The notes beneath the pieces were generated by a model, which was not told where the DNA came from, did no database searches, and worked only from the letters and a program-made list of their open reading frames with translations. Below, piece by piece: positions 1 to 59,011 of a DNA stretch of 64,000 bases. This stretch comes from Alkaliphilus sp. B6464 (lineage in GTDB: Bacteria; Bacillota; Clostridia; Peptostreptococcales; Natronincolaceae): assembly GCF_018141165.1 (NCBI RefSeq), contig NZ_CP058557.1:1860001-1924000 (forward strand), in the 5' to 3' direction. The translations under genes and the position numbers were made by a program. Position 1 is the first letter of the stretch. Each line of letters begins with the position of its first letter.

Positions 1-3000
1 TGCAACATCATTGAACTATAACAAGAGTTGTATTTAAATGAGTGTTAAATTTAACATGACAGGTGGAAATATTCACATTGAACTATAACAAGAGTTGTAT
101 TTAAATGATACGATTGCAGACTATGAAAAAGCATATTTTGATTGAACTATAACAAGAGTTGTATTTAAATGAATATAGAAGGTTTAGATAGAATTAGAGA
201 ACAAAATTGAACTATAACAAGAGTTGTATTTAAATATTACAAAGTCAACATTCTCCCTAATTTGAATAACCAATTGAACTATAACAAGAGTTGTATTTAA
301 ATCCATAGATTTTAAAGACAGTATCGGGCCTAACTTCATTGAACTATAACAAGAGTTGTATTTAAATTCAAAAGAAGGAAAAGCTGATGAAATAGAGCAA
401 CAAATTGAACTATAACAAGAGTTGTATTTAAATACTAGCTCTAAATTAACTTGACTTATCCAACCATCAATTGAACTATAACAAGAGTTGTATTTAAATT
501 TAATTCATGTTCCAGTATTTCTGCATATAATGGATTGAACTATAACAAGAGTTGTATTTAAATTTTGTTTCAGCATTAAAATATTCCTCGCCACATTCAA
601 TTGAACTATAACAAGAGTTGTATTTAAATAAATATTAGGTTATAACAATACCTTTAGACCATAAAATTGAACTATAACAAGAGTTGTATTTAAATGTACC
701 AGGGTTAGGGTTCTCTCCTGGATTAGGGTTCATTGAACTATAACAAGAGTTGTATTTAAATTCTAAAACAGAAGTTAAATTAACACCTGATAGATTATTG
801 AACTATAACAAGAGTTGTATTTAAATCAGGGAATATGAGGTGCTTATTTTAGTAGAAATTAAGATTGAACTATAACAAGAGTTGTATTTAAATATTTATC
901 CGGTACTCCTACATCCATTCTGGCAGCATATTGAACTATAACAAGAGTTGTATTTAAATTTTCTACAAAATCCGAAAATACCTTCCATGTGCTATTGAAC
1001 TATAACAAGAGTTGTATTTAAATTTAAAACAATACATATAATAAGATTAAGAAACAAACATTGAACTATAACAAGAGTTGTATTTAAATAAGAAGTTAAG
1101 CAAAATAAAGATGTTGTTGCTATATTGAACTATAACAAGAGTTGTATTTAAATGCCAGTTGATGATGTTATTTGGTATGATGTATATTATTGAACTATAA
1201 CAAGAGTTGTATTTAAATTTTATAACAGATTTAAATCTACATCACGATAACTTATTGAACTATAACAAGAGTTGTATTTAAATAAGATATAGAAATCTTG
1301 ATTTTTTTCTGTTGTTCTGGATTGAACTATAACAAGAGTTGTATTTAAATGACATGATTATATACGACACTGTAAGATATGAAAAATTGAACTATAACAA
1401 GAGTTGTATTTAAATGAAGTTAAATAAAACACCTTAGTATTTTCACCATTAAATTGAACTATAACAAGAGTTGTATTTAAATTTCTGCCATTTTGGTGGT
1501 GGGTTGTTTCCTTCGCCATTGAACTATAACAAGAGTTGTATTTAAATACTATAAGAATATAGGTATGTTCTGCTTTTCTAATTGAACTATAACAAGAGTT
1601 GTATTTAAATTCTCCTGCTACAGCTGGATTAGGCATAAGAGTAGCTATTGAACTATAACAAGAGTTGTATTTAAATAATCTGAGATAATGTCAGATAAGT
1701 ATTGATTCTCATTGAACTATAACAAGAGTTGTATTTAAATTGTGCAGAACTACATAAGCTAGGTATATACACCATAATTGAACTATAACAAGAGTTGTAT
1801 TTAAATATCTTATGAAAAGGATTATATTCAACTAGTTTCTCAATTGAACTATAACAAGAGTTGTATTTAAATTCAGTTCGACAGTAAAATACCAAATTCG
1901 ACTATTTTATTGAACTATAACAAGAGTTGTATTTAAATTTTTTATTTTTTGAGCTAACCATCTTACACTTCTTCCATTGAACTATAACAAGAGTTGTATT
2001 TAAATCCTTAATTAAATCTATTTCTCTAAAGCCCGTCCATCATTGAACTATAACAAGAGTTGTATTTAAATTCTACTACAAATATACTAGTTTCAGTGGC
2101 TTCGGATTGAACTATAACAAGAGTTGTATTTAAATTTCAGCAGTCCTAATAATTATAGGGTATGGGATATTATTGAACTATAACAAGAGTTGTATTTAAA
2201 TAAATCTTTGTCAGATAAGAAGTCATCCTGCCAACGATTGAACTATAACAAGAGTTGTATTTAAATTCTGGCAACAGTCCAGATTTGTCGGTCATTTCAG
2301 ATTGAACTATAACAAGAGTTGTATTTAAATTTGCATACATTATTCTACTTTGAATCTCTTTTTCTATTGAACTATAACAAGAGTTGTATTTAAATGACGT
2401 ACTTACAGTTAACAATGATACAGAGCCAAATTGAACTATAACAAGAGTTGTATTTAAATTTACAGATGGAGAGAACTTTGATAAAAAAGAAGCAATTGAA
2501 CTATAACAAGAGTTGTATTTAAATAATTTATTATCATTAATTGGAGTGATTTCATTGTAAATTGAACTATAACAAGAGTTGTATTTAAATAGTGGTTCTC
2601 GTTATATAGATGAATTATATGGTTATCATTGAACTATAACAAGAGTTGTATTTAAATTCTACTATCTTCCACTTTCTTTTCTGAAGGGCTCCCCATTGAA
2701 CTATAACAAGAGTTGTATTTAAATTAATACTTAGGGGGAGTACTACTTAGGGGGATAAAATTGAACTATAACAAGAGTTGTATTTAAATCTCTTCACTTG
2801 ACATCTTGTCTCCATCAGAAATCATTGAACTATAACAAGAGTTGTATTTAAATCACATATATTGACCTCCTTTTAGTTACTCATGATTTATTGAACTATA
2901 ACAAGAGTTGTATTTAAATTCCGGAATCAAAGCTATCTCTAATGTTCCTTCATATATTGAACTATAACAAGAGTTGTATTTAAATTTAAATTGACTAGGA

Positions 3001-6000
3001 ATGTTATAAGGGGGTAGTTCTAATTGAACTATAACAAGAGTTGTATTTAAATCCATGAACATTCGGGACAGTAAGGGTTATAAGATAAATTGAACTATAA
3101 CAAGAGTTGTATTTAAATTAGATGAATTGCATTTTTTACATCGAATTATACCGCATTGAACTATAACAAGAGTTGTATTTAAATTAACAATATATTGTGT
3201 TTTGGGAGCATCCACATAATATTGAACTATAACAAGAGTTGTATTTAAATCTTTTACCATTTATTCTAATTGCATTCCTTTTAATATATTGAACTATAAC
3301 AAGAGTTGTATTTAAATGAGAGTTCTACAAAGAGATAAAGGATGAAGTTAGATTGAACTATAACAATAGTTGTATTTAAATAGAACCTATAGAAAAGGAG
3401 GCACAGGAGCAGAAATCATTGAACTATAACAAGAGTTGTATTTAAATTTGTCTTTAGTTTGGGATTTGCTTTCTTTCTTGCCCATTGAACTATAACAAGA
3501 GTTGTATTTAAATATTATAGTCGAATATAGACCTAAAAATGATGAAATAAATTGAACTATAACAAGAGTTGTATTTAAATTTAGAATATAATATAAAATT
3601 CATAAAATTACTATCAATTGAACTATAACAAGAGTTGTATTTAAATGTCTGCTGTTGAGTTAAATCTTCATTAACCTTATGAATTGAACTATAACAAGAG
3701 TTGTATTTAAATAAATCATAAATATATGTTTTTTCAATTACTGTAGATTGAACTATAACAAGAGTTGTATTTAAATTTGGGTAGGCTATATCGTGTATAG
3801 ACTGTGCAGTAATTGAACTATAACAAGAGTTGTATTTAAATTGGGCAACTTTTCCATTAACTCATTCGCCGCATTTATTGAACTATAACAAGAGTTGTAT
3901 TTAAATATCCCTGCAAAAAAATATGGAATAACAACAGGTGAACATTGAACTATAACAAGAGTTGTATTTAAATAGGCTGTAAAGGCTCTATTAGACTTAG
4001 ACAAGGTAATTGAACTATAACAAGAGTTGTATTTAAATAGAACAGCAGGATTATTTACTCAATGGGTATTTGGTATTGAACTATAACAAGAGTTGTATTT
4101 AAATTTGTCTACTCTACCAATATAGTAAGTGTAAAAAGTCATTGAACTATAACAAGAGTTGTATTTAAATATCCAGATGGGACGAAAGGGAAGCATGTTT
4201 TAGAATTGAACTATAACAAGAGTTGTATTTAAATTTTTCAAAATATAAAATAGTATTATAAAGGGTAATAATTGAACTATAACAAGAGTTGTATTTAAAT
4301 CCGGGATTAGGATTTTCTCCCGGATTAGGATTTTCATTGAACTATAACAAGAGTTGTATTTAAATTTAATTGAACTATATAGTTTGGAAATTTCTTCTTC
4401 GCATTGAACTATAACAAGAGTTGTATTTAAATACATTAAGAGATTATGAAACAAAACATAATGTAAAAATTGAACTATAACAAGAGTTGTATTTAAATAA
4501 CTTGGCAGATGCACGAAGATGCTTCTTTAGAGGGATTGAACTATAACAAGAGTTGTATTTAAATGTTAAAAAGTATACATTTTCAATTTGTTCCGCCTTA
4601 ATTGAACTATAACAAGAGTTGTATTTAAATGTTTCCTCTTTCCAGTGTTCTATGATTGCCTTAGGTATTGAACTATAACAAGAGTTGTATTTAAATAAAT
4701 AATAATTATTTATAATAGATTCTTCCATAGAAATTGAACTATAACAAGAGTTGTATTTAAATCCTCTTGTTGACTGGTTTGGAGAAAAGGTAGAAATTGA
4801 ACTATAACAAGAGTTGTATTTAAATAACATCAAAATAATAGAAAAAAGATGGAATGAAGTGATTGAACTATAACAAGAGTTGTATTTAAATAGTGTTAAG
4901 GCCATGAGTGGAGCAACTGGTGAAGAAATTGAACTATAACAAGAGTTGTATTTAAATGCACTGTACAAAAATGGGGTAGCTGAAAATAGGGCTAATTGAA
5001 CTATAACAAGAGTTGTATTTAAATATTGAATACTTATTCATACTTAATTCCCCCTTCTAAATTGAACTATAACAAGAGTTGTATTTAAATGAAATTTACT
5101 CCAGAATTTCTAATTCAATATGCGAATTGAACTATAACAAGAGTTGTATTTAAATTATATCTTGGAATACTTTTTAGAATATGTATAAAATTGAACTATA
5201 ACAAGAGTTGTATTTAAATGTCGGAGCCGGATTAAAATTAGGACTAGGAAATTGGATTGAACTATAACAAGAGTTGTATTTAAATAACAATGCAATGTTA
5301 TATTCCATCCCACCAACTCCATTGAACTATAACAAGAGTTGTATTTAAATTATCAAGAGAAATGAGTAAAGAACAAGTAGCAAAAATTGAACTATAACAA
5401 GAGTTGTATTTAAATACCTAACTAATCTATATCAAAGTGGCAGGCCTAATACTATTGAACTATAACAAGAGTTGTATTTAAATCATAATATTACTAGATG
5501 GTTGGCTAGGTTGTATTTATTGAACTATAACAAGAGTTGTATTTAAATTAATACTGCTCTTGTTTAATAGAACTGTCATCTCGATTGAACTATAACAAGA
5601 GTTGTATTTAAATTCGGCTATTATATCTAAGATGTGGTATTTCTTTGATATTGAACTATAACAAGAGTTGTATTTAAATTGGAACAGGTAAAACATATCT
5701 GACATCTTGCATAGCATTGAACTATAACAAGAGTTGTATTTAAATGAAATAATAACAGGATTAATATACTCTAACTGTGATAATTGAACTATAACGAGTG
5801 ATTGAACTATAACAAGAGTTGTATTTAAATAAGAAAACTTATGAATATGTTTTACAAAGAGCCACAAATTGAACTATAACAAGAGTTGTATTTAAATGCT
5901 AGTTCATTTAGATCTTCTTGAGCTTCTTGGAATTGAACTATAACAAGAGTTGTATTTAAATATACCAGAACACTTAGATGATGACATAATGTTAAATATT

Positions 6001-6205
6001 GAACTATAACAAGAGTTGTATTTAAATCTATTTTGGGGTATTGGTCTTGTTACTATTACATTATTGAACTATAACAAGAGTTGTATTTAAATGATATTGC
6101 CCCTGTCTGCACTGGATTAGATGCATTATTGAACTATAACAAGAGTTGTATTTAAATTTTCCTTTTTCATCCCTAATGAACTTTCTTGTATAATTGAACT
6201 ATATA
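1..6205 (+). CRISPR. CRISPR array, 94 full repeats, left end outside window
   Basis: I counted 94 complete copies of a 30-bp repeat that begins ATTGAACTATAAC and ends GTTGTATTTAAAT, with unique spacers of about 34 to 39 bp (period about 66). The first full repeat is 10-39 and the last is 6128-6157. A degenerate copy (ATTGAACTATATA, 6193-6205) closes the array. Decay at this end, and the resemblance of the repeat to clostridial type I-B repeats that end in TAAAT, suggest transcription on the plus strand with the leader and newest spacers left of the window. That direction is inferred. The repeat at 3352-3381 has one G to T change. No cas gene is present in the window. Open reading frames that span the array simply translate the repeat and are not genes. 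Confidence 0.98.
5783..5800 (+). repeat. Truncated CRISPR repeat abutting a full repeat
   Basis: The sequence ATTGAACTATAAC plus GAGTG looks like a repeat that has lost bases from its middle and its whole 3' part. It is followed with no spacer by a full repeat at 5801-5830. It is the only such unit I saw inside the array and probably records slippage or faulty integration. Confidence 0.8.
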
Positions 6206-17305: not shown

Positions 17306-17329
17306 TTAGCTACTCTGAAGCTTCTTTTT
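17290..17329 (+). terminator. Terminator overlapping the engB stop codon
   Basis: GAAGCTCCAGAGTAG, loop TTAG, CTACTCTGAAGCTTC, then TTTTT. The engB TAG is in the 5' arm. The 3' arm overlaps the last codons of the convergent EamA gene, which stops at 17306 right beside engB. Confidence 0.85.
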
Positions 17330-18202
17330 ATTATCCTTTGATGATAGTACTGTTTTCCAATCTAACTCAGAAACAATCATACCAATCAATATTAAAACAC
17401 TACCTAAAATAGCACGTCTTGTTAATAGTTCACCAGCTACAAAATATGCAAAAATTGCTGAGAAAACAGGTTCTCCTGAATAAATAAGGGCAGTATGTGT
17501 AGGAGATGTAAACTTCTGCATAACATTTTGAATAATAAAAGCTCCCGAAGTACAAAGTACAGAAAGAACAAAAATAGTTACCCATATTTCTGATCCCTTA
17601 GGTAATATAGGTTTTTCTGTAGCAAAGCTAAAAAACAAGCTTAATACACCTACTACTCCAATCTGGATTATAGCCATTGCAATAGAGTCGACCTTAACGG
17701 TATATTTACCTACTGTAATAATGTGTAATGCAAACATAAGAGCTGAAATCAATGTATATAGGTCCCCAATATTTAGTGCTAGAGAGGAATCTAGTGTTAA
17801 GAAACCTAGCCCGATTATGGCAAATACAACACCTATAACTGCAGATTTATGAGGTTTGACCTTCAACAAAAATGCTGACAAAATAGGTACTATAACTACG
17901 GAAAAACCAGTAATAAATCCGGATTTAGATGCACTAGTGTAATTAAGACCTACTGTTTGAAAAGCATAGCTTGTAAATAAAACAGCACCTATTAATATAC
18001 CATATTTTATAGTATCTTTATCTAAATTAATTAGATTTTTATAAAATATAATTGCAGATATAAGTGCTGCTAATAAAAAACGTATAGCTAAAAAATTATA
18101 AGTCGATAAATGATCTAAAGAATTTTTAGATAGAACAAAAGAAGATCCCCAAATTACTGTAACTGCCAGTAATGATAGATCTGCCTTTAATTGCTTTGAC
18201 AT
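17306..18202 (-). CDS. EamA-family (DMT superfamily) transporter
   Basis: 298 residues with about ten hydrophobic segments in two EamA repeats (each opening with a conserved W-G-S-S-F or E-P-V-F-S pattern: VIWGSSFVLSK near residue 17, YSGEPVFSAIFAYF near 242). Family members export metabolites or amino acids, but the substrate cannot be read from sequence. GAGAGGGGT lies before the ATG. It converges with engB without any intergenic space. 18203-18334 contains no clear element. Confidence 0.88.
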   Translation of the reverse strand: MSKQLKADLSLLAVTVIWGSSFVLSKNSLDHLSTYNFLAIRFLLAALISAIIFYKNLINLDKDTIKYGILIGAVLFTSYAFQTVGLNYTSASKSGFITGFSVVIVPILSAFLLKVKPHKSAVIGVVFAIIGLGFLTLDSSLALNIGDLYTLISALMFALHIITVGKYTVKVDSIAMAIIQIGVVGVLSLFFSFATEKPILPKGSEIWVTIFVLSVLCTSGAFIIQNVMQKFTSPTHTALIYSGEPVFSAIFAYFVAGELLTRRAILGSVLILIGMIVSELDWKTVLSSKDNKKKLQSS

Positions 18203-18334: not shown

Positions 18335-19837
18335 TTATATTATTTTCATTGATCCTGTTTCTAAGTAGCGACTATGCCAGGAAAGTGCTTCCTCTAATAT
18401 ATGAGGAGTATGTTTAAATTTTCTATTTTCAGCTCGATTAAAGTAGTCAAGTAGCATAGGTCTATAGTCAGGATGTGAGCAGTTATTAATGATAAGCTTT
18501 GCTCTTTCTTTGGGACTTAAGCCTCTTAAGTCTGCAGTTCCTTGTTCCGTTATAATAATCATAACATCATGCTCAGTATGATCAGTATGGGAAACAAAAG
18601 GAACTATAGAAGAAATAGTACCATTTTTTGCTGTGGATGGTGTGGTAAATATTGATATGTAAGAGTTTCTGCTAAAGTCCCCAGAACCACCTATACCGTT
18701 CATCATTTGAGAGCCCATAATATTAGTGGAGTTTACATTTCCATAAATATCTGCTTCTATGGCGGTATTCATTGCAATAACCCCTAATCTTCTTATTATC
18801 TCTGGGTGGTTACTAATTTCTTGGGGGCGTAATATAATTTTATCTTTATAAAAATCAATTTTATCTTTAAATCTTTTTAACCCTTCTTCGGATGGTGTAA
18901 TAGCTGTACCTGATATATGTAGTGCTTTTCCAGCATCAAGTAGATCTAGCATAGAATCTTGAATAACCTCTGTATAACATACAAGATTGTTAAATTTAGA
19001 ATGTAATAATCCTCCTAAGACCGCATTAGCAACATTTCCGACACCAGATTGTAAAGGCAATAAGTTTTCTGATAGTCTACCTTTTTTTACTTCATTTTCT
19101 AAGAAATCTATTAGATGTCCTGAAATTTGGTTAGAAATGTCATCTATTGGTGCTAGGGGTTTAACATTGTCTTCAATATCAGTTATAACAATTGCAGCAA
19201 TTTTTTCTATATTACAAGGAATGTAAGTTGTACCTATTCTTTGACTAGCATTAGTCAGACCTATAGGTTTTCTGTTTGGAGGTGCTTCAGGAATATATAT
19301 ATCAGACATACCTTCTAACTCAAGGGGTTGGCTTGTATTAATTTCAATTATTACCTTTTCTGCTAAATCTATAAAGGTAGGTGAACAACCTATAGATGTA
19401 GAAGGTATAATATACCCCTCTTTTGTTATGGCCACAGCTTCTACAATAGCTATATCTATCTTTCCTAAAAAACCATAGTTGGCATATTGAGATACATGAC
19501 TTAGGTGCATATCTAAATATTCGCAGCCCCCATTATTTGTATAGTCTCTCATACTATTATTAGTTTGATAAGGTAACCGCTTGCTAATAATTTCTGATCT
19601 TGCTAAAGTACCATCTAACTCGTCGCCTACAGAGGCTCCAGTGTACAATTTGATTTTTATTTTTTCCTTTGTTTCTTCTGCTATTTGTGCTAATGCCAAA
19701 GGTACAGCTTTGGGATATCCAGAAGGTGTAAATCCGCTGGTAGCTACAGTCATACCATCTTTTATTAACATAGCAGCTTCTGTAGCTGAAACAACTTTGT
19801 TCATAAGGTTATAGTTTCTAATTCTACCTGTTATCAT
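18335..19837 (-). CDS. Acetyl-CoA hydrolase/CoA-transferase, Cat1-like
   Basis: 500 residues, the length of class I CoA-transferases of the Cat1/AarC succinyl-CoA:acetate type. Visible family features are the catalytic Glu in YTEVIQDS (about residue 288), GSGDFSRN (about 390) and the C-terminal GLSPKERA. The likely reaction is CoA exchange between succinyl-, acetyl- or other acyl-CoA and a free acid, but the exact acids are not determinable. AGGAGG precedes the ATG. It lies 26 bases downstream of the transporter gene and probably shares the B12-riboswitch-controlled transcript. Confidence 0.88.
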   Translation of the reverse strand: MITGRIRNYNLMNKVVSATEAAMLIKDGMTVATSGFTPSGYPKAVPLALAQIAEETKEKIKIKLYTGASVGDELDGTLARSEIISKRLPYQTNNSMRDYTNNGGCEYLDMHLSHVSQYANYGFLGKIDIAIVEAVAITKEGYIIPSTSIGCSPTFIDLAEKVIIEINTSQPLELEGMSDIYIPEAPPNRKPIGLTNASQRIGTTYIPCNIEKIAAIVITDIEDNVKPLAPIDDISNQISGHLIDFLENEVKKGRLSENLLPLQSGVGNVANAVLGGLLHSKFNNLVCYTEVIQDSMLDLLDAGKALHISGTAITPSEEGLKRFKDKIDFYKDKIILRPQEISNHPEIIRRLGVIAMNTAIEADIYGNVNSTNIMGSQMMNGIGGSGDFSRNSYISIFTTPSTAKNGTISSIVPFVSHTDHTEHDVMIIITEQGTADLRGLSPKERAKLIINNCSHPDYRPMLLDYFNRAENRKFKHTPHILEEALSWHSRYLETGSMKII

Positions 19838-19863: not shown

Positions 19864-21228
19864 CTAAAATGGCATATTATGCAGGATTATTGTAAAAATA
19901 ACTATTCCTAGCAGTGCAAATGGATATATTGCTCCATAGCCTTTTGCAGGATCATCGCTACCCACAGCATCTATAGCTGCTCCTAATCCAGGGGTAGATG
20001 TTCCGCAAATAGCCCCAGATAACATAACCCAGTTAATTTTAAATATATATTTTCCAACAATTAGTCCAGTAAGCATTGCAGTGGTTTTTACAACTATTGA
20101 TACTATAGCTAATATAGCGCCTGAACCTGTTAAAGCACTAAAAACCTCAGACCCATATCTCAAACCTACAATTGCCAGAAAGAAAGCTAGGGATAATTGT
20201 CTTATAATAGCTAACAATTTATTATTCATTCGGAAATTTAAAAATCCTATTTTACCTATATATCCAAGCAATAGGGAAGCTATTAATACACCTCCAGTAA
20301 TCCCTAAGCTAAAGTTACCTAGAGGACCTAAAGATACTTTAATACTTCCTAAGGTAAATCCAGTAAGGCAGACTATTATAAAAGCGGTTAAATCAAATTC
20401 TACCTCTTGAATTACATTTTCATTAGAATATTTTTGTAATTCCTCTATTTCTTTTATAAATAATTTTTTTTCATTATTTATATCAATGTTAAAAAGTCTT
20501 GGAAATAAATTAACGGCAATAATAACAATCATTACACCAAAAGGGTAGGCTACGGCGTGGCCAATTCCAATTCCTGCTTCAGCAATTTTTATTAATTCCT
20601 GTTTTTGGTCATCTGTTAAACTAGCAGTATTTTCAGTTGTCAGATTTCCTGATGGATCTAATAATTTAAGTAGCTCTGTTTTTTTCTGTGAATTTAATGT
20701 TTCGTATTGATTTGCCCAATCGGATGCATGACTATTTGCAGTTTCTATGGCAGCAGCAAGTCCTGGAGAGCTAGTTAAAGCTCCTGTATATACACCAGAT
20801 ACTTCATAAGGATTTGAGCTAGAACTTAGTAAGGTAACACCATAGGTAGCAATAGCACCCGATAATGTCATTAAAAACCCTAATACAATAAATTTCCATC
20901 CATATTTTTTAAATACTACCCCCATATCTTTAGCAGCTAATAGTCCTACAGATGCTATAAATAAAATTAAAAATATATTAAAAAAATCCTGAGAAATAAC
21001 ATTTGTTTCTATTAAAGATTTTGCTGCCTTATATCCATAATTTTCTGTATTTAATTGTTTTGCATAATCAACTACTAACCATCCTACAATCAACCCTAAA
21101 AATAATGTTCCAGATACGCCAAATCTAAATTTACCAAATTTTATCTGTCCAAATAACATACCTAAAAACACTGCAATAAACATAAGTATAAACGGATTAA
21201 GTATCCACGAAATACTATCAAAGCTCAC
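19864..21228 (-). CDS. AspT/YidE-like membrane transporter
   Basis: 454 residues starting with GTG at 21228 behind AGGGAGGA. About ten membrane segments in two repeats. Each repeat has the hallmark of aspartate:alanine exchanger (AAEx) family proteins: GALTSSPGLAAAIETA in the first half and GTSTPGLGAAIDAVG...DPAKGYGAIYPFALL in the second. A hydrophilic loop of about 90 residues (about 180-270) separates the halves, shorter than and unlike the TrkA-C domains of YidE. The substrate is probably an anion or dicarboxylate, which would suit the CoA-transferase next to it. First gene after the cobalamin riboswitch. Confidence 0.75.
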   Translation of the reverse strand: MSFDSISWILNPFILMFIAVFLGMLFGQIKFGKFRFGVSGTLFLGLIVGWLVVDYAKQLNTENYGYKAAKSLIETNVISQDFFNIFLILFIASVGLLAAKDMGVVFKKYGWKFIVLGFLMTLSGAIATYGVTLLSSSSNPYEVSGVYTGALTSSPGLAAAIETANSHASDWANQYETLNSQKKTELLKLLDPSGNLTTENTASLTDDQKQELIKIAEAGIGIGHAVAYPFGVMIVIIAVNLFPRLFNIDINNEKKLFIKEIEELQKYSNENVIQEVEFDLTAFIIVCLTGFTLGSIKVSLGPLGNFSLGITGGVLIASLLLGYIGKIGFLNFRMNNKLLAIIRQLSLAFFLAIVGLRYGSEVFSALTGSGAILAIVSIVVKTTAMLTGLIVGKYIFKINWVMLSGAICGTSTPGLGAAIDAVGSDDPAKGYGAIYPFALLGIVIFTIILHNMPF

Positions 21229-21316
21229 TAATATTCCTCCCTATTTATTTAGTAGTCAATGGCTTCAAAACTACCGTTAAAATTATTTGTGTTTTATGCT
21301 CTTAGGTGTCAAAAAC

Positions 21317-21348
21317 ATAAAAAACCTTTTTCCCTAAGGAAAAAGGTT
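21317..21348 (-). terminator. Intrinsic terminator between B12 riboswitch and transporter gene
   Basis: On the minus strand AACCTTTTTCC, loop TTAG, GGAAAAAGGTT, then TTTT. It lies about 90 bases upstream of the first structural gene and is the probable expression platform of the riboswitch. Confidence 0.85.
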
Positions 21349-21365
21349 ATAGACAACACACAATA

Positions 21366-21413
21366 TTAATTAAAGGATATTAATTTATTAATTTCCCTTA
21401 ATGCATGGCCCAT
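21366..21413 (-). CDS. Putative 15-residue leader peptide
   Basis: AAGGAGGTGTT stands directly before an ATG that opens MGHALREINKLISFN and then a TAA. It lies between the B12 aptamer and the terminator. The perfect binding site is the main evidence. It may couple ribosome movement to termination, or simply be chance in an A/G-rich stretch. Confidence 0.45.
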   Translation of the reverse strand: MGHALREINKLISFN

Positions 21414-21439
21414 AACACCTCCTTATCCTCGTAAGTTAT

Positions 21440-21640
21440 TGCGGTATTGTTCTTTATGGCAGGTCTCCTGGCTTAGAATCATAACACATCTAATACCTTC
21501 CCATTTTTTACAAAACAGTGGCATAGTTATAGATGTACTCCTCTTTACAGTGGCGGGACCGCGTCGGATTTTAACCGAACTTCCCTTTTAAGCTGTTAAT
21601 TTAATTAAAACAGCACCATAAATCTATGTATTTACTTTTT
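21440..21640 (-). promoter_or_regulatory. Adenosylcobalamin riboswitch
   Basis: The minus strand shows the standard landmarks in order: GGTGCTG (21611-21617), AAAAGGGAA with the following TCGGTTAAAATCCGAC hairpin, CGGTCCCGCCACTGTAA, and finally AAGCCAGGAGACCTGCC (21458-21474). The aptamer is followed by a mini-ORF and an intrinsic terminator, so B12 probably causes premature termination. Downstream are the AspT-like transporter and the CoA-transferase. Confidence 0.95.
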
Positions 21641-21720
21641 CACAGTTATTGTATCAGACAATCTATATATAGGCAATATCTTTATTCGTGTGTTGAAATT
21701 AGTATCTAGCTATAAATAAT

Positions 21721-22788: not shown

Positions 22789-23432
22789 GTGCGACGGGCA
22801 GTCGCATGGGGTGCTAAGTCAGTTAGCACCCTTCATATCTTTAATGGACAGAGACGTCATTTCGATGAAACGACTGGCAGAAGTTAATAGATGTTGAATC
22901 CCAGATGGTGAAAGTCCATCCCCGAGGAGACTGACCTAGCTCGGGAAGCTTAATCTAGGGCATTATCGTGAGGTATTGTCTGAAGGAGATGCGGATAATC
23001 GAGAGACCCGTAGGCGAAACAATAGACCCTAATACAATAAGTGTGAAGCACGGCGGCGGGTTAAGTTGGCGACTTTGCGAAAAATGAGGAAGCCCACTAA
23101 AAGACATTTCTTTTAGACGTCAGACCAAGGAAATGTGACTTAAAACGTGATGGTGCAGGGTATGTTGTGAAGGGAAATGCGATAACCCCGTGAGGTCTCC
23201 ATCTTTCCAAACAGGTAGGGTTCTAGTCTATAAGGGTAATCCGAAGTGACAAAGAACAGATGGAGAAGTCAGACGTTCTCATAGTACGGAAGTAGTTTGA
23301 TGACCATAACATCAAATGAACGGAAGGGGAGCGACCTATGGCTCCAAGTCATGAATTGGATGTAATGCTAACAATCATGTTACCGTGGTAAAACCGTTTA
23401 AAAGTACATCAAGGAAAGGCGTGGAATAATAA

Positions 23433-24135
23433 ATGAATCAAGAGTGGAAATTCAAGTTACATAGTGTATATGGACAACTGTTGTTTGATCGTAAATTAAC
23501 CCAAAGCTTTGAGCAAGTAAAGGCGAATAAAGGCGCTGGTGGAATAGATGGTCAAACAATAGAAAGTTATGAGGCTAAATTAGAAGAAAACATCATGGAA
23601 CTGCTAAATAATCTTAAGACAAAAACTTACCAAGCTCAACCAGTTAGAAGAGTATACATTCCAAAGAAAAATGAAAAGAAACGTTCATTGGGTATTCCAA
23701 CTATAGAGGACCGAATTGTTCAGCAAAGTGTAGTAAATGTACTTCAACCAATATTTGAAGATAAACTTTTTCATAACTGGTCCGTAGGATATAGACCTAA
23801 TCGCGGAGTCGAAAGGGCACTGCAAATAATCCTATGGAATATTGAACAAGGATATAACTATATATATGACTGCGACATAAAAGGATTCTTTGATAATATT
23901 TCTCATAAGAAGCTCATAACAGTTCTAAAGAAATATGTATCCGATCGGACAATATTAGGAACAATTGATCAATGGCTTAAAGCAGGATTCTTGGAAGAAG
24001 GAAAACTCATACATTCTGACTACGGGACACCGCAAGGCGGGGTAATTTCACCACTTCTTGCCAATGTATATCTAAATGAATTAGACTGGGAATGGGATTT
24101 ACATGGTATAAGATTTGTTCGCTATGCTGATGACT
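23433..24135 (+). CDS. Outer intron reverse transcriptase/maturase, 5' exon
   Basis: The first 234 codons plus one base of the intron-encoded protein: RT0-RT4 motifs including GIPTIEDRIVQQ, SVGYRPNRG, DCDIKGFFDNI and GTPQGGVISPLLANVYLNEL, ending in FVRYADD. The frame is cut exactly after the YADD catalytic box by the inner intron. Excision of 24136-26004 joins it in frame to the 3' exon for a protein of 477 residues. Unspliced, translation runs 10 codons into the inner intron and stops at 24167. Confidence 0.9.
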
Positions 24136-26004
24136 GTGCGCCACGAAGGCGTGTCCAAGTAGCGTAGCTACTTGAAGACAGCTATGCTGTGCAGATGATG
24201 GCGGTAGGCCCGCCGAAATCGCCATACAGGTGGAGGTTTCAAACTACCTTAAGGTGCTGTGGTCAAAAGCCATGGTATTGAGCGTTAAGGAAAAGGCAGT
24301 ATCTAAACTGTCAAGTGCGTATTAAGGAGATGAACGAGCAAGTGAACCACTTACGAAAATGTCGAAAGCGTAGAGATTCCATCAAAACCAGGGGGTTGTC
24401 GTTAATCTGGGATAAGTCTAGGGGAAACCTGTTTACTGCCTAGATGGTGGGCGGCATAAAGGTGGCATGAACTTAATACAGGCGTCTGTACGGAACGTGG
24501 GAACCCACGGACTGATGTCAAGGGAGTATATCAAGCGGAAGAACCGCAAGATAAGAGTACCAATGCAGTCATGGGGGCAGATTGGGTTGTAGTAGTGAGG
24601 AAGTTTCTGTAATGGGAATGGAGTGAAGAACCCGAGTTATTCAGTTTCAAGAATAAGTCAACTTTGAAAGGAGGAGGAGCTTATGCAAGAAACAAAGCCA
24701 TATAATATTTCAAAATGGAAAGTGAAAGAAGCCTACGAAAAGGTGAAAGCAAACAAGGGAACATACGGAGTCGATGAACAATCAATTGAAGATTTTGAGA
24801 AGAATCTAAATAATAATCTATACAAAATCTGGAATAGGATGTCATCAGGGAGTTACTTCCCCAAACCTGTAAGGGCAGTAGCAATACCTAAGAAAAATGG
24901 AGGGACTCGTATCTTAGGAATACCAACAGTAGAAGATAGGGTTGCACAAATGGTGGCTAAAATGTACTTTGAACCCTGTGTAGAACCAATATTCTATGAG
25001 GATTCCTATGGATATAGACCGAATAAATCAGCGATACAAGCATTGGAGATCACAAGAGAAAGATGTTGGAGAAAAGATTGGGTGTTAGAATTTGATATTA
25101 AAGGTCTTTTCGATAATATACGGCATGATTACCTAATAGAAATGGTAAGTCGGCATACAGAAGAAGCATGGATAATTATGTATATTAAACGCTGGCTGGT
25201 TGTACCATTTCAAATGGAGGATGGAACAGTCATCGAAAGAACTTCTGGTACACCACAAGGTGGGGTAATCAGTCCAGTACTCTCAAACTTGTTTCTACAC
25301 TATGTATTTGATGACTTTATGACAAAACAGTTTCCAACAATACCTTGGGCAAGATACGCAGATGATGGAATAGCACATTGCGTATCTTTAAAGCAGGCGA
25401 AGTATCTTCAACGAAGATTAGAAGAGCGATTTCTGATGTTTGGACTTGGATTGAACTTAGAAAAGACAAGAACCGTGTATTGTAAAGATGAAGACCGAAA
25501 GGGGAATCATGAATATACATCTTTTGACTTTTTAGGGTATACATTCAGACCAAGACATGCAAAGAATAAGTATGGAAAATTCTTTACAAACTTTCTTCCA
25601 GCTATTGGCGAGAAAGCAAAGAAATCTATACGGAAAGAAGTCCGAAGTTGGAAATTGCAACTGAAACCTGACAAAGATTTATGGGATATAGCAAATATGT
25701 TCAATAGTAAGATACAGGGTTGGATTAATTATTACACGCATTTCTACAAATCAGAGATATACGATGTATTAAGGTATATCAATGGATGTCTTGTTAACTG
25801 GGTTCGTAGAAAATATAAGAAGCGAGGGTCAAGGCGACGTGCTGAGTATTGGCTTGGTATAATAGCAAGGCGTGATAAGAATCTGTTTGCACACTGGAGG
25901 TTTGGAATATTACCATCGGCTGGATAATGGGAGCCGTATGAGCTGAGAGGTTCACGTACGGTTCTGAGAGGGACTTAAGGGGAGGTTCCTTAGGTCTACT
26001 CACT
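24136..26004 (+). mobile_element. Inner group II intron nested in the outer RT gene
   Basis: Begins GTGCGCCACGAAGGCGTG directly after the YADD codons of the outer RT. A ribozyme region of about 540 bases, its own RT ORF (24683-25927), then domain V (GAGCCGTATGAG ... CGTACGGTTC, 25930-25965) and domain VI ending CTACTCACT. Frame restoration needs the 3' splice after 26004; a more canonical AC end at 26003 would leave one extra T and shift the frame. About 1.87 kb, apparently complete. Confidence 0.88.
24683..25927 (+). CDS. Inner intron reverse transcriptase/maturase
   Basis: 414 residues behind AAAGGAGGAGGAGCTT. RT domain with GIPTVEDRVAQMVAK, DSYGYRPNKSA, EFDIKGLFDNI, TSGTPQGGVISPVLSN and the active site RYADD (about residue 227), then thumb and maturase domain X (INYYTHFYKSEIYDVLRYIN). 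The C-terminus ends GIIARRDKNLFAHWRFG and no HNH endonuclease follows, so it would rely on endonuclease-independent retrohoming. All key residues are intact, which argues for recent activity. Confidence 0.95.
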   Translation: MQETKPYNISKWKVKEAYEKVKANKGTYGVDEQSIEDFEKNLNNNLYKIWNRMSSGSYFPKPVRAVAIPKKNGGTRILGIPTVEDRVAQMVAKMYFEPCVEPIFYEDSYGYRPNKSAIQALEITRERCWRKDWVLEFDIKGLFDNIRHDYLIEMVSRHTEEAWIIMYIKRWLVVPFQMEDGTVIERTSGTPQGGVISPVLSNLFLHYVFDDFMTKQFPTIPWARYADDGIAHCVSLKQAKYLQRRLEERFLMFGLGLNLEKTRTVYCKDEDRKGNHEYTSFDFLGYTFRPRHAKNKYGKFFTNFLPAIGEKAKKSIRKEVRSWKLQLKPDKDLWDIANMFNSKIQGWINYYTHFYKSEIYDVLRYINGCLVNWVRRKYKKRGSRRRAEYWLGIIARRDKNLFAHWRFGILPSAG

Positions 26005-26735
26005 TTTTACTGTTTGCTAAATCAAAAGAAGCTATTGAAAGGGCAGAAGCTCTAACTAAAGAAAAGTTAGATGAATTAGAATTAGAAGTCTCAAAAGAGA
26101 AAACAAAAATAGTTAACTTTCAAGAAGAAGATTTCGACTTCTTAGGATTTACTTTTCATCATTGGAGGCCAGGAAAAAAGGGTAATAATCAAATTTTCCA
26201 TGTTACTCCTAAGAAAGATTCTATTAAGGACTTTCGATTGAAAATTAAAGAAAAGACACAAAAGAGACTAACCCTAAGTAAAGAACAGTGGATAAACCGA
26301 GTTAATCCAATTATTCGGGGAAAAGTTAACTACTATACAACTGTAATAAAAGCTATTAAAACTAATGAGCAATACGGCCAAAAGAGCCGATGCGTAACTA
26401 GATGGATGAGAACAATACTATTATCTGTAGATGGTTATATAAGAAGGAGATTACGCGTAGCGTTTATTCATAAACATCCCTCTCAAAAGAAAGGAATGAA
26501 GATGAATTCCAAATGGAATAATGCTTTCTTTGTGGGAATTAAACTTATACCTAGCTATTGGCTATATCTAAATAAAGCATATGGATATACACTACAAGAT
26601 TATCTAGAAGAATTAAAAAGCAAATCAAAGCAAAAAGTACAGCGTGCCATAGAAAGAACACATGAAAAGGGTGAAGAGTATTACACTCCCCACCGACTCC
26701 AGAAGATGCAAAATGCCTGGAATGCATCCTCTTGA
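26005..26735 (+). CDS. Outer intron reverse transcriptase/maturase, 3' exon
   Basis: Continues the outer RT at F-LLFAKSKEAIERAEAL right after YADD, then SKEKTKIVNFQEEDFDFLGFTFHHW (RT7), thumb and maturase domain X (INPIIRGKVNYYTT-like segment and WMRTILLSVDGYIRRRLR). The reading frame is open from 26004 to the TGA at 26733-26735. It has no HNH domain. On its own it would not be translated as a functional protein. Confidence 0.88.
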
Positions 26736-26858
26736 TAAACATTTTAACATTTGGTAAGCCGTATGCCTTAGTAGGGCACGTACGGTTTGATAAGGGGGGA
26801 GCTATGAAAATAGTTTCCCTACTTTATTATTGCTTAGAAAATTATAAATTTTTTAATT

Positions 26859-47545: not shown

Positions 47546-47632
47546 TAAATTGTAAGCGATAAATATATTTTATGTACATAAGTAAAACTTATGTACTGTG
47601 CTGCATTAAAAAAGTTAAATATACGAGACATT

Positions 47633-47806
47633 ATCTACGAGCCTAATTACCTAAGGATAAATATCTAAGGTTTTAGACCGATAGGTAGACTTGGAAACGA
47701 GTATGCCTCCCATTTTGTAAAGTAGATTAGTGAAAATGATGCATAGTTATCTAGAATTAATGCTTTTGTTAGCGTTTTCTGGTGTTGCTGATTTTTTACT
47801 AATCTA
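47633..47806 (+). promoter_or_regulatory. Candidate riboswitch A (Moco/Tuco-like), upstream of YdhY-AOR
   Basis: Closing stem P1: ATCTAC (47633-47638) with GTAGAT (47722-47727). Inside is a hairpin GGTA ... TTGGAAAC ... TATGCCTCCC with a GAAA loop (47684-47711). The P1 3' strand is also part of TAGATTAGT (47723-47731), which can pair with ACTAATCTA (47798-47806) before a T-rich stretch, so aptamer and downstream hairpin exclude each other. The same P1 and core recur at 58837-58951 with compensatory changes. Ligand class is inferred from the Mo/W genes that follow. The rest of the leader to 47955 forms another hairpin (47821-47875) with no ORF. Confidence 0.6.
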
Positions 47807-58819: not shown

Positions 58820-58836
58820 AAATATGAACTTAACAA

Positions 58837-58951
58837 ATCTCCGAGTTGTGGTTTTATAATGTTGTTATCTGCGAAACTTCAAACTGGACCAAAGGGTCCA
58901 CAGGGGGTATTTGGCAACACTTATGCCTTCACCATATGTTGCAAAGGAGAT
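58837..58951 (+). promoter_or_regulatory. Candidate riboswitch B (Moco/Tuco-like)
   Basis: P1: ATCTCC (58837-58842) with GGAGAT (58946-58951). Inside, GAGTT/AACTT, a perfect hairpin TGGACC-AAAG-GGTCCA (58886-58901), and the core GGTA (58906), TTGGCAAC (58911-58918), TATGCCTTC (58922-58930). Core, P1 flanks (ATCTnCGAG, AAAGnAGAT) and P1 covariation are shared with leader A at 47633. Downstream is a terminator with a competing antiterminator. The ligand is inferred from molybdopterin/Tat genes; not confirmed. Confidence 0.6.
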
Positions 58952-58958
58952 ATGAACA

Positions 58959-59011
58959 GACTTATACTTGTACGTAAGTCCTAGTATTGCATTTGCAATC
59001 TAGGGCTTTTT
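58959..59011 (+). terminator. Antiterminator/terminator pair of candidate riboswitch B
   Basis: GACTTA (58959-58964) can pair with TAAGTC (58975-58980), or the latter can form the 5' arm of the terminator AAGTCCTAG ... CTAGGGCTT (58976-59008) that ends in TTTTT. The two structures exclude each other, as in transcriptional riboswitches. Confidence 0.75.

Follow-up and report, generated by a model that had tools for sequence, protein, structure and literature searches.

A cobalamin riboswitch ahead of an AspT-family transporter and a succinate CoA-transferase in Alkaliphilus, and a possible link between vitamin B12 and succinate release

Introduction

What does a vitamin B12 sensor control when the genes behind it encode a dicarboxylate-type transporter and an enzyme of succinyl-CoA? 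The question is raised by a stretch of 64,000 nucleotides from Alkaliphilus sp. B6464 (assembly GCF_018141165.1, contig NZ_CP058557.1, positions 1,860,001 to 1,924,000), hereafter the window, in which a cobalamin riboswitch on the minus strand is followed by a gene for an AspT-family transporter and one for a ScpC/Cat1-type CoA-transferase. The categories given for published cobalamin regulons are synthesis of B12, transport of B12 or cobalt, and isozymes that stand in for B12-dependent enzymes (PMC3766115), and no word beginning 'succin' occurs in the main text of that study. The window unit is like the isozyme regulons in its aptamer family, RF00174, and in holding genes that a cell short of B12 would need, but unlike them in combining a dicarboxylate-type transporter with a succinyl-CoA enzyme without a mutase reaction. 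Among the papers listed by a literature search with incomplete coverage of subscription papers, none was on a cobalamin riboswitch before AspT, ScpC or SucCD genes.

We propose, with confidence about evenly balanced, that the operon serves as a B12-repressed relief valve for succinyl-CoA and succinate. The proposal is drawn from comparative sequence analysis: the leader resembles that of an OFF switch, the unit recurs in relatives, it co-occurs with methylmalonyl-CoA mutase, and its partner enzymes converge on succinyl-CoA.

Results

The window unit

The unit consists of three elements, the two genes being separated by 26 nt:

21441..21635, minus strand: cobalamin riboswitch aptamer, RF00174 (cmscan 120.4 bits, E 1.2e-29)
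19864..21228, minus strand: AspT/AAEx-family transporter, long form, 454 aa (PF06826, 199.8 bits)
18335..19837, minus strand: ScpC/Cat1-type succinate CoA-transferase, 500 aa (TIGR03458, NF053853)

A sequence-only reading had placed a B12 riboswitch in front of an AspT-like transporter and a CoA-transferase, and this layout is borne out by RF00174, PF06826 and NF053853, although the interval it delimited, 19864-21640, spans the riboswitch and the transporter, with the CoA-transferase outside it. The aptamer matches the whole RF00174 model (1-189 of 189) in structure and sequence, far above the gathering score of 31.5.

The CoA-transferase, of the ScpC/YgfH type, scores 779 bits against TIGR03458 (cut-off 659) and 738 bits against the succinyl-CoA:acetate CoA-transferase equivalog NF053853 (cut-off 500), aligns with 2g39 at E 2e-164, and falls short of the butyryl-CoA:acetate CoA-transferase equivalog NF053666 (644 vs 740 bits). 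It keeps the YTEVIQDS motif with Glu290, which we take to be the place of the catalytic Glu. The transporter contains two Asp-Al_Ex membrane domains (two PF06826 stretches, cut-off 27 bits) and passes TIGR01625 (98 bits, cut-off 72), while the aspartate-alanine antiporter equivalog TIGR03802 is not reached (116 vs 547 bits); from its family, succinate or another C4-dicarboxylate is its probable substrate. An AlphaFold model of the transporter, made from seven sequences, was poor (mean pLDDT 50) and was not used.

A leader predicted to be of the OFF type

Between the aptamer and the start codon of the transporter gene lies a terminator-like hairpin, and the leader as a whole can be described by five features:

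21648..21676, minus strand: weak promoter-like site TTGCCT-17-TACAAT with an extended -10 (9/12 matches), 12 nt upstream of the aptamer
21422..21435, minus strand: hairpin CTTA[CGAGGA]TAAG directly after the aptamer, seen in the sequence
21409..21428, minus strand: predicted 5' strand of an antiterminator, GGATAAGGAGGTGTTATGGG, from a duplex calculation, overlapping that hairpin
21338..21352, minus strand: predicted 3' strand of the antiterminator, having 21338-21348 in common with the terminator 5' arm
21323..21348, minus strand: predicted intrinsic terminator of 11 bp, AACCTTTTTCCTTAGGGAAAAAGGTT followed by TTTTAT (-13.8 kcal/mol)

The order after the aptamer is thus the small hairpin, presumably equivalent to P13, then GAGGTGTTATGGG, then the 11-bp terminator. 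The duplex of GGATAAGGAGGTGTTATGGG with the terminator 5' arm is calculated at -11.5 kcal/mol (z -2.5 against mononucleotide shuffles), and because the antiterminator strand can pair with that arm, terminator and antiterminator would be mutually exclusive. As modelled, the leader has the arrangement common to switches that ligand binding turns off. A signature directly after the aptamer, [AG]AGGAGGTGT, is found in 15 of 19 riboswitches that precede AspT in the genomes described below and in 0/10 other cobalamin riboswitches examined. A riboswitch tree places the window aptamer on the side of these AspT units, with a weak split (75/93); pairwise aptamer identity separates the groups poorly, one other riboswitch of the window genome ranking third of 28 at 0.86.

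Between riboswitch and transporter a single promoter-like site was listed for the minus strand, at 21259..21230 (9/12 match), and such sites occur in the scanned region at about shuffle level (30 found, 26.4 expected, sd 5.0). The leader also holds a 15-codon open reading frame (ORF) after a strong ribosome site, GGAGGTGTTATG. We rejected it as a leader peptide: its frame is lost in the relatives' leaders read by eye, the counterpart in L196 stopping after two codons, and we therefore take the stretch as part of the antiterminator.

The unit recurs with enzymes of succinyl-CoA

The unit was sought in an order-level sample of 393 genomes, of which an AspT alignment search matched 104; 116 places were fetched among the matches listed and, together with loci already in hand, all 104 AspT genomes were covered at least once. 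Riboswitch and AspT stand together in 18 genomes of the order, the window genome and 17 others, spanning 14 genera, and in one genome from another family of the class (G671, locus L236), which gives 19 units. The other 17 units of the order have a shorter AspT (387-443 aa) and a riboswitch that Rfam confirms in every case. AspT is the first gene in 15 of these 17; in L207 and L208 it is preceded by a 168-aa gene, which in L207, the one scanned, encodes a cobalamin adenosyltransferase.

The gene after AspT varies. It is ScpC in seven of the 19 units (window, L196, L202, L203, L205, L206, L236), and the relatives' retention of the pair behind the riboswitch, which the sequence-only reading had proposed to check, is thereby found in six other genomes. 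It is SucC, of succinyl-CoA synthetase, in nine (L027, L028, L199, L200, L204, L207, L208, L219, L222), where scanning of four (G007/L085, L199, L200, L204) confirmed a SucD gene in each, and a SucD-like acylating aldehyde dehydrogenase in two (L198, L201). In the remaining unit, L197, no gene follows AspT on the same strand. Judged by their families, all three kinds of partner, ScpC, SucC and SucD-like, act at succinyl-CoA.

With a query from G007, SucC is single-copy and inside the unit in all nine SucC-type genomes; it was not found in any of the seven ScpC-type genomes (G671 being 86% complete), nor in the three genomes with a SucD-like dehydrogenase or AspT alone. An initial SucC search had returned 0/9 with no positive control, and the repeat that included known carriers gave 10/17. 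The units seem to rely on either ScpC or SucCD for setting succinate free, with SucCD, where it belongs to them, under the riboswitch.

The same inventory bears on another explanation, in which the transporter serves B12 metabolism itself, as a carrier of a precursor or cobalt ligand, and ScpC is a passenger. The window genome (G000; 3.86 Mb, two contigs) has five RF00174 riboswitches, and the other four precede cbiM, two ABC-type binding proteins (the first scoring below its cut-off, the second named by eye) and cobyric acid synthase, company that would suit a carrier of this sort. So would the adenosyltransferase between riboswitch and AspT in L207 and, by layout, in its close relative, as would the lone AspT of L197. 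A succinyl-CoA enzyme nevertheless adjoins AspT in 18 of the 19 units, and the known substrates of the AspT family are aspartate, alanine and succinate; we regard this explanation as very improbable.

Some loci depart from the simple plan. L027, L028, L199 and L236 have two cobalamin riboswitches in tandem before AspT. In L027 and L199 the upstream copy belongs to another type and groups with the riboswitch of cobyric acid synthase in the window genome. Further cobalamin riboswitches lie beside the unit in L219 (7244-7413) and L222 (6590-6761), one of them before a 588-aa ORF and one on the other strand, pointing away. In L200 an IS607-type transposase and an OrfB/TnpB-like gene (1932-3747) sit between sucC and the next CoA-ligase gene. 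L209-L214 carry AspT-SucC genes and no cobalamin riboswitch; four of these six loci have an FMN riboswitch.

The link to methylmalonyl-CoA mutase

The transporter in the window belongs to a long form of AspT (about 456 aa), for which 77 loci were fetched: within the DNA retrieved, 40 have ScpC and McmA1, 19 have ScpC and no McmA1, and 18 have no ScpC. The typical order in relatives, AspT-ScpC-McmA1-McmA2-MeaB(-epimerase), is that of a B12-dependent methylmalonyl-CoA mutase operon, often adjoining fumarase, malic enzyme or a sensor pair. Such operons resemble the known gene clusters with ScpC/AarC of the succinate (methylmalonyl-CoA) propionate pathway, a pathway described in a paper whose main text does not contain 'riboswitch' (PMC9403272); the window pair differs from them in standing outside the mutase operon and behind a B12 riboswitch. 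Rfam found no cobalamin riboswitch in 14 mutase-linked AspT loci, in the one C. difficile-like locus searched (L168), in six named close relatives (five with mutase genes in view) or a distant Bacteroidaceae locus, in four AspT loci of the same family, or in L119 and L130, two long loci without mutase. A pattern scan found none in the remaining long AspT loci, an absence that is provisional because the regular expression also missed L206, which Rfam found.

Methylmalonyl-CoA mutase (PF01642) occurs in 129 of the 393 genomes. All 18 unit genomes of the order have it (G671 is left out of this count), against 111 of the 375 others (Fisher p 8e-10) and against 48 of the 86 AspT genomes without the unit (Fisher p 1e-4), both values being uncorrected for kinship. 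The sequence-only reading had suggested a pathway that replaces or avoids a B12-dependent route, via methylmalonyl-CoA or an aminomutase. The methylmalonyl-CoA half is the better one, in view of this co-occurrence and of the homologous pair in the mutase operon of many relatives. The aminomutase half found no footing: the lysine 5,6-aminomutase genes of the window genome, some 12 kb upstream of the mutase operon, had no visible link with the unit, and no aminomutase was recognised in the units, whose neighbouring genes are partly annotated.

In the window genome, the mutase operon continues with an epimerase, an MmdA-like subunit, a biotin carrier and a Na+-pump beta subunit, the last well over its cut-off and the MmdA-like subunit and biotin carrier under theirs. 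Since a decarboxylase with a Na+-pump beta subunit belongs to the operon, the mutase most likely runs from succinyl-CoA to propionyl-CoA, and because it would consume succinyl-CoA, loss of B12 should leave succinyl-CoA and succinate for disposal.

This direction matters for a second explanation, that the unit is a backup supply which at low B12 imports succinate and activates it, through ScpC with acetyl-CoA or SucCD with ATP, to replace mutase-made succinyl-CoA for biosynthesis. Repression by B12 would be expected of a B12-independent substitute, the ScpC and SucCD reactions are reversible, and an AspT of the CD2344 type is described as an uptake system in C. difficile. The decarboxylase-like and Na+-pump beta subunits, which point to a mutase that consumes succinyl-CoA, speak against it, as does the SucD-like partner of two genomes, which would itself consume succinyl-CoA. 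We consider a backup supply unlikely.

Comparison with the succinate operon of C. difficile

The AspT-ScpC pair has another known setting. The C. difficile operon CD2344-CD2338 (CD2344-cat1-sucD-abf) serves succinate metabolism, and the role described for CD2344 is succinate import (PMC6143707). In C. difficile-like genomes of our collection, genes for a SucD-like dehydrogenase and a PF11794 protein come after the pair. The shared feature, seen in L168-L174, is an AspT-like transporter followed by a Cat1/ScpC-type CoA-transferase; the differences are that L168 has no riboswitch by Rfam, that the C. difficile operon leads to crotonyl-CoA, and that the dehydratase family was not found in the window genome. 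The loci L168-L174 themselves are presumably from Clostridioides.

Could the riboswitch unit then feed a B12-free reduction of succinate, through succinic semialdehyde, 4-hydroxybutyrate and crotonyl-CoA to butyrate, in place of the mutase route? The SucD-like dehydrogenases that follow AspT in two riboswitch genomes are 65-67% identical to that of the C. difficile-like operon, and the clade of riboswitch-linked ScpCs is sister to a mostly SucD-linked one (support 85). PF11794, the 4-hydroxybutyryl-CoA dehydratase family, which also holds other enzymes, is matched above cut-off in nine of the 18 unit genomes. In the other nine, the window genome included, it is absent or, in one, below cut-off, and the search that gave no match in the window genome did match the C. 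difficile-like G068 and G117. The ScpC search, too, gave no AbfT-like match in the window genome, while several relatives yielded one. From these gene contents the succinate-to-butyrate route looks closed in the window genome, and as a general account of the unit we find it improbable.

Descent, an apparent transporter exchange and reciprocal loss

In a tree of 75 CoA-transferases, built by a quick search, the window ScpC groups with five riboswitch-linked ScpCs of the order (SH-aLRT 99), and the ScpCs of mutase operons are placed elsewhere; the ScpC of G671, left out of this tree, is 66% identical. The transporter has a different history. In the AspT tree (93 rows) it sits inside the long clade (support 100) on a long branch (0.53), and not with the riboswitch-linked short AspTs, which themselves split into more than one group. 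Because ScpC falls in the riboswitch clade and AspT in the long clade, the window unit looks like a riboswitch-ScpC unit in which the transporter has been swapped for the long type.

The opposite pair survives in the sister genome G004, whose aligned flanking DNA is 95-98% identical to that of the window genome. Its ftsH-mcmA1 interval holds AspT-ScpC (4.2 kb) where the window genome has about 0.2 kb, and at the window locus its unit is gone, leaving as relics the last 50 bases of ScpC, a 77-88 bp AspT-ScpC junction and the sequence upstream of 21706. These relics indicate that the ancestor carried the riboswitch unit and that the sisters retained different pairs. G005, a 92%-complete draft and the third genome of the genus, lacks the pair in its mutase operon and gave no match to AspT or ScpC; its loss of the mutase-operon pair, common to it and the window genome but not to the closer G004, probably happened separately. 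The five other ScpC-type unit genomes of the order keep the mutase-operon pair as well (L121, L128, L139, L141, L142).

The window transporter also lacks two residues (GM) of the motif ICGGMTSTPG, at about 20001/20002 and with the frame intact, so that it reads AICG-TSTPGLG where relatives have AICGGMTSTPGLG. This two-residue loss was seen in the window protein alone among 123 AspT proteins collected, two of which could not be judged; 114 of the 123 match the motif pattern, and the eight others besides the window protein are six sequence variants and the two unjudged. The unit may thus be decaying in the window genome, working poorly or not at all, though functional in relatives. The gap in a near-invariant motif, the long branch, a bulge in the predicted antiterminator and the deletion of the unit in G004 would all fit; that both reading frames are open over their full length, that ScpC keeps YTEVIQDS, and that aptamer and terminator are intact does not, and we give decay little credence.

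Other features of the window

One further gene may belong to the transcript:

17306..18202, minus strand: EamA-family transporter downstream of ScpC (PF00892)

No terminator-like site is listed on the minus strand between ScpC and this gene, which is possibly co-transcribed with the unit; it is also present in G004 and G001, both without the riboswitch unit. Elsewhere in the window, nested group II introns occupy 22789-26822: an inner intron with its own RT (24683-25927) interrupts the reverse transcriptase (RT) ORF of the outer one (23433-24167 and, by eye, 26238-26735), and in G004 the corresponding site is cleanly empty. Positions 10-6157 hold a very long CRISPR array, in which a 30-bp repeat (RF01316) is matched 93 times at intervals of about 66 bases. 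Two molybdenum/tungsten cofactor riboswitches (47623-47741 and 58827-58965) precede, by eye, genes for an iron-sulphur protein with an aldehyde ferredoxin oxidoreductase-like protein and for a ferredoxin-type protein.

Discussion

How would such a relief valve work? When adenosylcobalamin is plentiful, it would bind the aptamer, the hairpin behind the aptamer would form, the antiterminator would be lost and transcription would stop at 21323. The mutase operon would meanwhile take succinyl-CoA via methylmalonyl-CoA to propionyl-CoA, with a Na+-pumping decarboxylase. When adenosylcobalamin is scarce, the mutase would be idle and the leader would be read through; through ScpC, acetate would take over the CoA of succinyl-CoA, which would yield acetyl-CoA and leave free succinate for export by the AspT-like carrier. 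In relatives SucCD would replace ScpC, gaining ATP. In this way B12 would decide, through transcription, between propionate and succinate as the product of fermentation.

We favour export because the AAEx family includes SucE1 and because ThrE-type genes stand beside AspT-SucC in two relatives. SucE1 of Corynebacterium glutamicum is described as an AAEx-family succinate exporter (PMC9527358), like the window AspT an AAEx carrier, with kinship at the family level only. ThrE/ThrE_2-type genes (PF06738/PF12821) precede AspT-SucC in L210 and L211, the two loci scanned with Pfam. Genes of this type are of the kind of E. coli YjjPB, a succinate exporter; for SucE1 we know of no link to B12.

Several observations weigh against the relief valve, besides the kinship that the mutase statistics leave uncorrected. 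Uptake instead of export is possible by analogy, CD2344, a long AspT relative, being described as a succinate importer, and the missing motif residues and long branch suggest that the window transporter may be altered or failing. At E <= 0.001 the only match to the window ScpC in its genome is itself, and this sole ScpC would be off with B12, repressing the usual ScpC step of propionate release; propionate release would then need another enzyme, or little propionate would be made from succinate. On the side of the leader, the window antiterminator is bulged, and an automatic antiterminator search over 18 unit leaders (L236 left out) reached z <= -1.5 in only seven, one of these on a later hairpin. 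The terminator finder behind it chose misplaced or weak hairpins in three leaders (L202, L197, L198), and in two more (L200, L204) it settled on a second hairpin further on. An antiterminator at the same z also appears in two of the four other riboswitch leaders of the window genome and is hence not specific to the unit. Nor does every short AspT have a riboswitch: by Rfam, 17 of the 28 short-AspT loci of the order sample have one and 11 have none, and 12 further, distant short-AspT loci (L223-L234) gave no credible riboswitch in the pattern scan, the one search applied to them. Over the class, where the short-AspT alignment matched 67 of 391 genomes and 30 loci were fetched (all 30 pattern-scanned, 20 searched with Rfam), the unit is rare outside the order, G671 having the sole riboswitch among the eight genomes there with short-AspT matches of at least 454 bits.

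Rumen bacteria are known to form propionate in a way that depends on B12, and such bacteria release succinate without it. For Xylanibacter, it is reported that none of the four predicted cobalamin riboswitches lies near succinate-pathway genes (PMC11575231).

Extended from the window to the Clostridia, the relief valve would be one form of a modular cassette of riboswitch, AspT-like carrier and succinyl-CoA/succinate enzyme, through which adenosylcobalamin picks between propionate and succinate and whose pairs are reciprocally lost in sister genomes, a generalisation that we put forward tentatively and hold at somewhat less than even confidence. What the genomes contain is a riboswitch placed directly on a succinate module in 14 genera, always together with the mutase in the order sample, so that a link between B12 and succinate is written in the genome, and this regulation predicts a role for a poorly known transporter family. 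If the proposal is true, reciprocal loss would have made the succinate metabolism of one sister B12-repressed and that of the other not, and the supply of B12, which often comes from neighbours, would decide which acid these anaerobes release.

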